Shown in pieces: positions 14,095 to 55,268 of a DNA stretch of 60,477 bases. The position numbers were made by a program, and so were the translations under genes. The DNA lies in NCBI RefSeq assembly GCF_003344785.1, contig NZ_QPMK01000001.1:1-60477 (forward strand), written 5' to 3'. This stretch comes from Thalassococcus profundi. GTDB lineage: Bacteria > Pseudomonadota > Alphaproteobacteria > Rhodobacterales > Rhodobacteraceae. Position 1 is the first letter of the stretch. Each line of letters begins with the position of its first letter. Below the pieces are notes generated by a model. The model did no database searches. It worked only from the letters and a program-made list of their open reading frames with translations, and had not been told where the DNA came from.

Positions 14095-14166
14095 CTTCAT
14101 CTTGCCGATAAACCTCCAGAGAGCACGAGAGACTGGTCTCTCGTATCGCCCGCCAATGCGGGCGAT
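14095..14166 (+). repeat. Dispersed double-hairpin repeat, copy 1 (leader type A)
   Basis: The leader CTTCATCTTGCCGATAAACC is followed by hairpin 1, ACGAGAGA/TCTCTCGT (14125-14144), and hairpin 2, ATCGCCCG/CGGGCGAT (14145-14166). It lies 14 bases 3' of the stop of the minus-strand gene at 14181 and just 5' of the zinc-ribbon gene. Related copies are at 17226, 23270, 27610, 45241 and 55139. Confidence 0.85.
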
Positions 14167-17225: not shown

Positions 17226-17334
17226 CGCAGGGGCGGGAGCGAGGGGCATCGTCCATTGTCCTCGGACCAATGGCGGAAAATGAACGATCCCTCGCGCTCC
17301 CCGGGGGTTATTGAGAACCAGAAAAGACGGGACG
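17226..17334 (-). repeat. Dispersed hairpin repeat, copy 2 (type B, expanded loop)
   Basis: Read on the minus strand it starts with a variant of the type B leader, GGTTCTCAATAACC, then GCGAGGG pairs with CCCTCGC, and the stem is extended by ATCGT/ACGAT around an inner CCATTG/CAATGG hairpin. It therefore carries about 40 extra bases in the loop compared with other copies. It is also the only copy oriented with, not against, the adjacent upstream gene (livF). Confidence 0.75.
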
Positions 17335-23258: not shown

Positions 23259-23269
23259 GATGCCCCCCG

Positions 23270-23320
23270 CTTCATCTTGCCCATAAATCTCCGGGGAGCG
23301 CGAGGGGCTGGCCCCTCGCT
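23270..23320 (+). repeat. Dispersed hairpin repeat, copy 3 (type A leader, GC-rich stem)
   Basis: The leader CTTCATCTTGCCCATAAATC is followed by GCGAGGGG/CCCCTCGC (23300-23319) with loop CTGG. It lies between the CoA ligase stop (23410) and the livG start (23258). A further GGCGCCC/GGGCGCC pairing at about 23322-23360 may be its second hairpin. Confidence 0.8.
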
Positions 23321-27609: not shown

Positions 27610-27660
27610 CTTCTTCGGTTCTCAATAACCCTCGGGGAGCGCGAGGGGCTGGCCCCTCGC
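27610..27660 (+). repeat. Dispersed hairpin repeat, copy 4 (type B)
   Basis: The leader CTTCTTCGGTTCTCAATAAC is followed by GCGAGGGG (27641-27648), loop CTGG and CCCCTCGC (27653-27660). It lies 29 bases 3' of the formate dehydrogenase stop, on the opposite strand orientation. Confidence 0.85.
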
Positions 27661-45240: not shown

Positions 45241-45311
45241 CTTCTTCGGTTTTCAATAACCCTCGGAGAGCACGAGAGGCAGAGCCTCTCGTATCGCGCG
45301 GCACGCGCGAT
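45241..45311 (+). repeat. Dispersed double-hairpin repeat, copy 5 (type B)
   Basis: The leader CTTCTTCGGTTTTCAATAAC is followed by hairpin 1, ACGAGAGGC/GCCTCTCGT (45272-45292, loop AGA), and hairpin 2, ATCGCGCG/CGCGCGAT (45293-45311, loop GCA). It abuts the stop of the minus-strand GcvT-family gene (45315) at a distance of three bases. Confidence 0.88.
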
Positions 45312-55138: not shown

Positions 55139-55268
55139 CTTCATCTTGCCGATAAACCTCCAGAGAGCACGAGAGACAGCGTCTCTCGTATCGCCCGTCG
55201 GGCGATGCTGCTGCGCCGATGCGCAAGCGCATCGGACGGCGTCTCTCGTATCGCCCGGAACGGGCGAT
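55139..55268 (+). repeat. Dispersed double-hairpin repeat, copy 6 (type A, compound)
   Basis: The full unit has leader CTTCATCTTGCCGATAAACC, hairpin 1 ACGAGAGAC/GTCTCTCGT (55169-55189) and hairpin 2 ATCGCCC/GGGCGAT (55190-55206). A CCGATGCGC/GCGCATCGG palindrome (55216-55235) and a 60-base-shifted second copy of the 3' half (from 55239) with ATCGCCCG/CGGGCGAT (55250-55268) follow. The last hairpin ends at the base before the final stop codon complement of the thioesterase gene. Confidence 0.88.

Follow-up and report, generated by a model that had tools for sequence, protein, structure and literature searches.

The 60,477-nt stretch of the Thalassococcus profundi genome analyzed here (referred to as the window) contains six intergenic copies of a short dispersed repeat, located at 14095, 17226, 23270, 27610, 45241 and 55139. 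These positions had been given in an earlier note made from the sequence alone, and all six were recovered; the intergenic status of the copies was likewise borne out by home-made gene calls based on codon usage. A 24-nt core pattern applied with up to three mismatches yields exactly six matches in the window, compared with 0.00 expected from 100 dinucleotide shuffles. The part previously described as a leader proved to be composite, comprising a truly conserved leader and a 6-nt purine arm, overlooked at that time, which mirrors the 5' arm of the adjacent hairpin. In 72 copies from the same genome the elements follow one order, namely the leader, a third arm of six purines (RH), a three-nt spacer (L1), six purines (R), a loop (L2) and six pyrimidines (Y), with R pairing to Y.

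Five of the window copies lie on the plus strand. Copy 1 (type A) starts with a type 1 leader at 14095-14117 that has 0 mismatches to the leader pattern, followed by the RH arm AGAGAG at 14118-14123, which is the mirror of R, the hairpin at 14127-14142 (R GAGAGA, loop CTGG, Y TCTCTC), and a second, variable hairpin at 14145-14166, whose arms form a perfect palindrome. The other type A member, copy 6 (55139-55206), has a type 1 leader (55139-55161), RH AGAGAG (55162-55167), R GAGAGA (55171-55176), Y (55182-55187) and a second hairpin (55190-55206), and continues on the same strand into a tail at 55207-55268 in which a third hairpin is joined by a repeated 3' half (GTCTCTCGT with another variable hairpin); similar tails were found in other type A copies. 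Copy 5 (type C, 45241-45311) combines a type 2 leader (45241-45261) with RH GGAGAG (45265-45270), R GAGAGG (45274-45279), Y (45285-45290) and a second hairpin (45293-45311). The second hairpin is absent from two type B copies, copy 3 (23270-23319; leader 23270-23292, RH GGGGAG 23293-23298, R GAGGGG 23302-23307, Y 23312-23317) and copy 4 (27610-27660; type 2 leader 27610-27630, RH GGGGAG 27634-27639, R GAGGGG 27643-27648, Y 27653-27658); a model of the leader and hairpin, R1, matches copy 3 at 23262-23319. Copy 2, the 17226 copy, is also of type B and occupies 17239-17326 on the minus strand, with the leader running from 17326 to 17306, RH GGGGAG at 17302-17297, R GAGGGA at 17293-17288 (one mirror mismatch), Y at 17246-17241, and a long loop that holds an additional hairpin of its own. 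Replacement of the loop by a long insert bearing its own hairpin was also seen at loci L023, L032 and L063, and these inserts, like that at 17239-17326, resemble the tail at 55207-55268. A separate tandem pair of 53-bp repeats, 92% alike, is present at 1576-1681.

The three stem pairs quoted in the earlier note are correct, whereas its statement that most copies add a second hairpin does not hold, as this hairpin directly follows the first in three of the six (14095, 45241 and 55139). The predicted RNA folds of five window copies are more stable than those of shuffled sequences (z from -2.8 to -3.2), and the fold of the 23270 copy is not (z -0.52).

At the level of the whole genome (4.78 Mb in 94 contigs), the core pattern has 72 matches and its reversed control has 0. 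The leader patterns alone, allowing up to three mismatches, have 116 (type 1) and 63 (type 2) matches, which overlap the 72 core matches, again with 0 matches for the reversed control. The two leader types proposed previously are therefore real, but their interpretation as two sublineages needs qualification: both carry type A, B, C and all-G hairpins, so that leader and hairpin are either modules exchanged by recombination or have co-evolved within both leader groups. The leader is bipartite, with two to three free letters inside an otherwise conserved stretch. Variants include a TCCA leader in the genome G009 and, in the genome G104, a frequent form ending in CTCA that has no GC hairpin directly after it (L454, L459 and L461). 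At L201, L202, L211, L215 and L234 of the window genome, two leaders face each other as an inverted head-to-head pair with some 20 nt between them; in the four type 1 inverted pairs that were read, one leader is followed by a triplex-type module and the other by type D, a short module without RH (CGCCGGAGGC).

The hairpins behind these leaders form four classes of RH/R arms: type A (AGAGAG/GAGAGA), type B (GGGGAG/GAGGGG), type C (GGAGAG/GAGAGG) and all-G arms of G4 to G6. L2 measures 4-5 nt in 68 copies. The RH/R mirror is perfect at all six positions in 66 of the 72 copies and has a single mismatch in the other 6; for this mirror core the reversed-pattern control is uninformative (7 control vs 6 matches). 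Most of the leaders without a core match, as read in 40 stretches, precede either the same plan with other arms (six, five or four G, or G-tracts in which a whole variable hairpin replaces L1) or the type D module. A loose pattern for such hairpins in L1, which misses several copies seen by reading, retrieved 23 segments, of which 8 are tandem short-loop copies; among the remaining 15, RH and R are equally long in 13 and all three arms are equal in 8. The second hairpin accompanies 37/37 type A and 11/11 type C copies and 0/18 type B copies with an intact nearby Y (6.3% in shuffles; 6 of the 72 copies fall outside these classes). Although its presence thus depends strictly on arm type (A or C, 48/48), it is hypervariable, with 27 different arm sequences in 48 copies.

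The hairpin covaries. Across 65 aligned copies, which were chosen for diversity and not at random (24 from the window genome and 41 from other genera, drawn from 68 window-genome copies and 85 listed matches), 99.8% of the R:Y cells are paired, and five of the nine pairs have changes on both sides. Such double changes account for 44 cells, compared with 10.1 in shuffles, and the covariation score is 0.251 vs 0.128 in shuffles. The paired stem changes reported for the window, and the selected structure deduced from them, are thereby supported in a diverse set of copies. Because the third arm changes together with the other two, the claim of selection becomes stronger than originally put. Between DNA and RNA, a choice that the earlier note had left open, the evidence leans to DNA.

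The covariation of the third arm was measured in a way that avoids circularity: copies were anchored on the leader, R and Y were assigned by Watson-Crick pairing only, and RH was read at a fixed distance. In the first set of copies, 154/168 mirrors are perfect, and mirror identity amounts to 953/984 letters vs 576/984 for a direct repeat. Among copies with 6-nt arms, 138/145 mirrors are perfect, compared with a permuted mean of 64.3 and a maximum of 79 in 2000 permutations. This permutation test leaves shared ancestry in, and types A, B and C may represent a few masters copied often; when each of the 11 distinct RH/R pairs is counted once, the excess diminishes (58 vs a mean of 48.3, reached in 1/2000), with 4 perfect mirrors vs 1.2 in permutations (reached in 36/2000). 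The letters switch together at three positions in the 145 copies, RH3/R4 being A/A in 37, G/G in 108 and mixed in 0, RH5/R2 being A/A in 129, G/G in 15 and C/A in 1, and RH1/R6 being A/A in 24, G/G in 116 and mixed in 5. A fourth switching position, RH 4, is represented by one copy, L300, in the sister genome G067 (GGGAGG/GGAGGG). A larger set contains 378 leader-anchored copies, of which 108 fall outside the 3-nt L1 geometry; among the 270 within it, 241 mirrors are perfect. In the first set, RH and R are equally long in 29 of 32 all-G copies (6/6 in 13, 5/5 in 13 and 4/4 in 3). The imperfect mirrors, which make up 4 of 13 parsed copies in the genome G018, include misparsed type D modules and decayed copies; in G067, 5 of 10 parsed copies are perfect. 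Some substitutions match no triplet, such as C facing A (one copy of the larger set) or G. In two copies (L286 and L387) a T faces A, an allowed alternative in purine-motif triplexes (PMC4666352).

Two conventional sources of a third covarying arm were considered. A second Watson-Crick hairpin between RH and Y was ruled out, as the A-containing arms are mirrors and not direct repeats. Pairing of RH with the end of the leader was also ruled out as the cause of the covariation, the usual leader ends in the window genome (CTCC and CCTC) being constant while RH varies. Neither a second Watson-Crick stem nor any copying process known to us would yield a mirror arm. As judged from the letters, the RH/R/Y geometry is the arrangement predicted for a class I purine-motif intrastrand triplex; this motif requires a mirror arm antiparallel to R (PMC4666352).

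The repeat is widespread in its family. The R1 model, built from the repeat and used to search related genomes as had been proposed, matches 114 genomes, among them the window genome, in a sample of 149 from the family. Its copy counts are lower bounds, as no more than 37 candidates per genome were scored in this sample and 39 in a class-wide one. In the class-wide sample R1 matches 6/142 genomes; two of them belong to the family (the window genome and one more), and the other four matches are weak, with a best E-value of 1.5e-5. Named records place the repeat in Roseobacteraceae/Rhodobacteraceae. In the same-genus genome G067, at least 4 of 27 R1 loci align on both flanks with element loci of the window genome (the pairs L047/L305, L233/L314, L046/L319 and L216/L320), while its other loci align on one side or on none when compared with 125 window-genome loci. 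These shared orthologous sites argue for a long residence of the element.

A contig scan with a pattern in which the first three letters of RH are free found at least 115 stretches with 122 distinct matches. Among the matches listed, the free letters complete the mirror in 87/91 cases with a leader-like stretch and in 24/31 without one. The leader is recognized here by a crude filter, one MAG contributes several matches, which are therefore not independent, and the 31 leaderless matches lie mostly outside the family. The background for comparison in these stretches is GGG at 1.6% of positions (non-overlapping) or 3.4% as calculated from the G frequency, with G at 32%. By record title (80/115 stretches), the matches listed from outside the family include gammaproteobacterial MAGs, Actinobacteria, Chloroflexi and Devosia. 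The same mirror hairpin was seen, sometimes in tandem, behind another leader (about GAGCCCTCAGCS) at L084, L089, L111, L112, L116, L120, L121 and L152, all gammaproteobacterial MAGs by record title, and at L158, L178 and L179. In actinobacterial records (Clavibacter, Frondihabitans, Nonomuraea and others) the match is confined to roughly the hairpin portion of the query.

The elements sit at the 3' ends of genes, avoid divergent gaps and are indifferent to gene direction. In the window genome, 54 of 120 elements are in convergent gaps, 33 (<<) and 26 (>>) in co-directional gaps and 6 in divergent gaps, with one unknown; the baseline of 363 intergenic gaps of 60-500 nt, taken from 8-kb loci that were each themselves selected by an element, comprises 68 convergent, 211 co-directional and 84 divergent gaps. 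Copies from other genomes that are not of type D are distributed as 42 convergent, 30 >>, 26 << and 7 divergent, with 8 having an unknown side, and the type D copies from these genomes as 8 << and 5 >>. In all six annotated plasmid regions of Roseobacteraceae that were examined, the match, in several cases partial, starts 10-77 nt past a co-directional stop; two further regions that were examined proved to be actinobacterial. A terminator scan of 13-30 kb in the window, a range that covers the copies at 14095, 17226, 23270 and 27610, gave 11 sites vs 9.6 in shuffles, none of which is formed by the hairpin of the element. Two overlapping minus-strand sites (17350-17331 and 17342-17324) end at the leader of the 17226 copy. 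A search against Rfam 15 returned only tRNA, both for the window at the gathering score and for 12 element loci at E-values up to 0.1.

The orientation of the element follows replication in one genome. In G009, a near-complete genome with a 3.56-Mb contig, GC skew flips within 1.14-1.23 Mb and again within 2.69-2.85 Mb (20 sampled points), and 73 of 81 leader matches lie on the negative-skew strand (Fisher p 5e-14); likewise, 27 of the 29 R1 matches listed (of 33) have their purine strand on that strand. The G-rich strand carries 62% of coding, and the orientation of the element relative to genes is mixed (<< 9, >> 9, >< 9 and <> 2, as read from low-scoring, short flanks); the polarity is thus not accounted for by the direction of genes. 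In the sampled stretches of this genome, four type D copies and two leader-only copies keep the same polarity (6/6). As copies without RH are equally polar, the polarity is not due to the triplex, which suggests that it is carried by the leader. The polarity is weak in the window genome, with 29+/11- vs 21+/24- (p 0.027) for the 85 elements among the matches listed on five contigs that lie near a stretch sampled for skew, and 21/9 vs 10/18 (p 0.017) among the matches listed at an absolute skew of at least 0.015. It is not significant in G104, a genome of irregular skew, at 28/21 vs 7/13 (p 0.12; 69 of 80 matches listed).

A published description of this repeat was not found in the open-licence PMC literature, most subscription papers being outside its reach. 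Hoyne and Maher reportedly described intrastrand triplex motifs (PIT elements) in 2000. The mirror-arm geometry of the class I triplex makes the PIT/BoxC repeat the nearest known kind, from which the present repeat differs by its class, with RH first, its leader and its several covarying arm types. As described by Holder et al. (2015, PMC4666352), the Escherichia coli element PIT/BoxC/TM_ECO likewise has a pyrimidine arm and a pair of purine arms on a single strand, uses G.G:C, A.A:T and (T.A:T) triplets, is G-rich and occurs in dispersed copies with short loops (3 and 3-6 nt there; for most of the present copies, 3 and 4-5 nt). Its arms are arranged as Y-R-RH (class II) and are 9 nt long, whereas the arms here are arranged as RH-R-Y (class I), are 4-6 nt long, come in several covarying types and follow a conserved leader. 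Neither the window nor any of 471 loci contains an exact match to the TM_ECO/BoxC class II pattern (CCCTCNCCC N3-6 GGGNGAGGG N3 GGGNGAGGG). That source also gives the ITxF definition of an intrastrand triplex as three consecutive arms with matching triplets, a stem of 6-15 nt and loops of 1-6 nt (PMC4666352). Five of the six window copies conform to it, with arms of 6 nt, L1 of 3 nt, L2 of 4-5 nt and a perfect mirror; copy 17226 departs from it by its long loop and one mismatch, and the all-G arms of 5 nt (39) and 4 nt (12) among the 270 parsed copies lie below its minimum stem. According to the same source, the E. coli motif forms a stable triplex in vitro that was not supported by footprinting in vivo, and it is without promoter or terminator activity in earlier work cited there.

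Paired DNA uptake sequences that act as terminators (Kingsford et al. 2007, PMC1852404) resemble the present repeat in that some leaders form head-to-head inverted pairs. The leader differs from them in being longer and bipartite, with free letters, an attached hairpin module and polarity in G009, and in having 63-116 matches per pattern in the window genome rather than 1000 or more.

We propose that the repeat is a family-wide, REP-like intergenic DNA element under selection for a fork-oriented triplex-type DNA fold, with the polarity residing in the leader, and we give this reading roughly even odds (a probability of about 0.5). R and Y would pair as a hairpin and RH would be retained as the mirror image of R; when the purine-rich strand becomes single-stranded, RH would turn back and lie, in antiparallel orientation, in the major groove of that hairpin, and G.G:C, A.A:T and occasionally T.A:T triplets would build a class I purine-motif intrastrand triplex. 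Selection would act on this DNA fold, and the element would be read or kept facing one way with respect to the replication fork. In G009, where the GC skew is clear, the strand with the leader and purines would serve as template for the leading strand, provided that the latter is the one of positive skew. The polarity is probably set by the leader, either as a sequence read by a protein or through spreading of the element via single-stranded DNA at forks, and the 3' ends of genes may be the sites that tolerate or use the structure. Formation of the triplex in cells, its placement at the level of DNA rather than RNA, and the fork as part of the mechanism are what we infer from these patterns. 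An argument for DNA is that purine-motif triplexes cannot form in RNA, according to earlier work cited in PMC4666352; on the other hand, a pyrimidine-motif triplex is conceivable in RNA of the complementary strand, and the arms are only 4-6 nt long.

The main rival is that the repeat is a relic or passenger of single-stranded DNA transposition of the REP or IS200/IS605-like kind, in which the fold served as the recognition structure of a transposase and the polarity arose from insertion at forks. REPs are short hairpin repeats with many intergenic copies at the 3' ends of genes. The present elements are similarly numerous between genes and located at gene 3' ends; their leader has a genome-specific flavour, leaders and hairpins mix as modules, and orientation follows replication in G009. 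REP/BIME sequences associated with RAYT (TnpA-REP) differ from them in lacking the third mirror arm and the leader of about 20 nt. No Y1 transposase (Y1_Tnp, PF01797) was matched in the window genome, which is estimated to be 100% complete, whereas 5/14 control genomes were positive. Two to three free letters within a conserved leader would be unusual for recent copies, and the long residence indicated by sites shared with the sister species also speaks against this explanation, which we consider somewhat unlikely.

Unlikely, too, and slightly more so, is an element acting at the 3' ends of RNA, where the hairpins would end or protect transcripts as terminators or exonuclease barriers and the third arm would either assist, as part of a pyrimidine-motif triplex formed by the complementary RNA, or be of little matter. 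Such a role would suit the location at gene 3' ends, the avoidance of divergent gaps and the position of the plasmid matches shortly past co-directional stops, and the leader end reads on the other strand as GRRR-TATTT, a weak U-tract after a short hairpin. Orientation in co-directional gaps is, however, neutral (33 vs 26, and 26 vs 30 for non-D copies in other genomes), because of which a strand-specific RNA role is not favoured; in G009 orientation follows replication instead, and the terminator scan of 13-30 kb gave no more sites than shuffles and none formed by an element hairpin. In addition, an RNA third arm would contain C runs, which are unfavourable at neutral pH.

It is quite improbable that the repeat is a polar signal of chromosome architecture similar to AIMS or KOPS, with a leader that would be recognized by a repair enzyme or translocase as it travels along the chromosome. 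AIMS are octamers enriched on leading strands and increasing towards the terminus (PMC5993296), and strand polarity by replichore is shared by the leader in G009, where it is strong whatever module comes after; a bipartite leader with free central letters also resembles a protein site. The present motif is no octamer as in that source: it spans about 20 nt, has roughly 60-120 matches per pattern and genome, has its leader and purines on the strand of negative skew in G009, and shows, among the three genomes, only weak polarity in the window genome and none of significance in G104. That an ordinary GC-rich hairpin acquired its mirror by accident of G-tracts and common descent is very improbable. 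In its favour, all-G arms are trivially both mirror and direct, and distinct RH/R types are few; against it, the arms that contain A (types A, B, C and L300) form mirrors without being direct repeats, and the three unconstrained letters match in 24/31 of the leaderless matches listed.

The proposed fork-oriented DNA fold leads to a more far-reaching statement, that a family-wide, replication-oriented DNA element with three co-evolving arms exists in which selection maintains an intrastrand triplex in living cells. We advance this statement tentatively and would not give it even odds. If true, it would amount to evidence from evolution for such a triplex being kept by natural selection in vivo. 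The several arm types, in which the third arm tracks the hairpin at every letter, offer natural variants for a direct test. The polarity observed in G009 would link an unusual DNA fold to the replication fork. The analysis also puts a name to a repeat without an Rfam model that is matched in more than three-quarters of the sampled genomes of its family (114/149).
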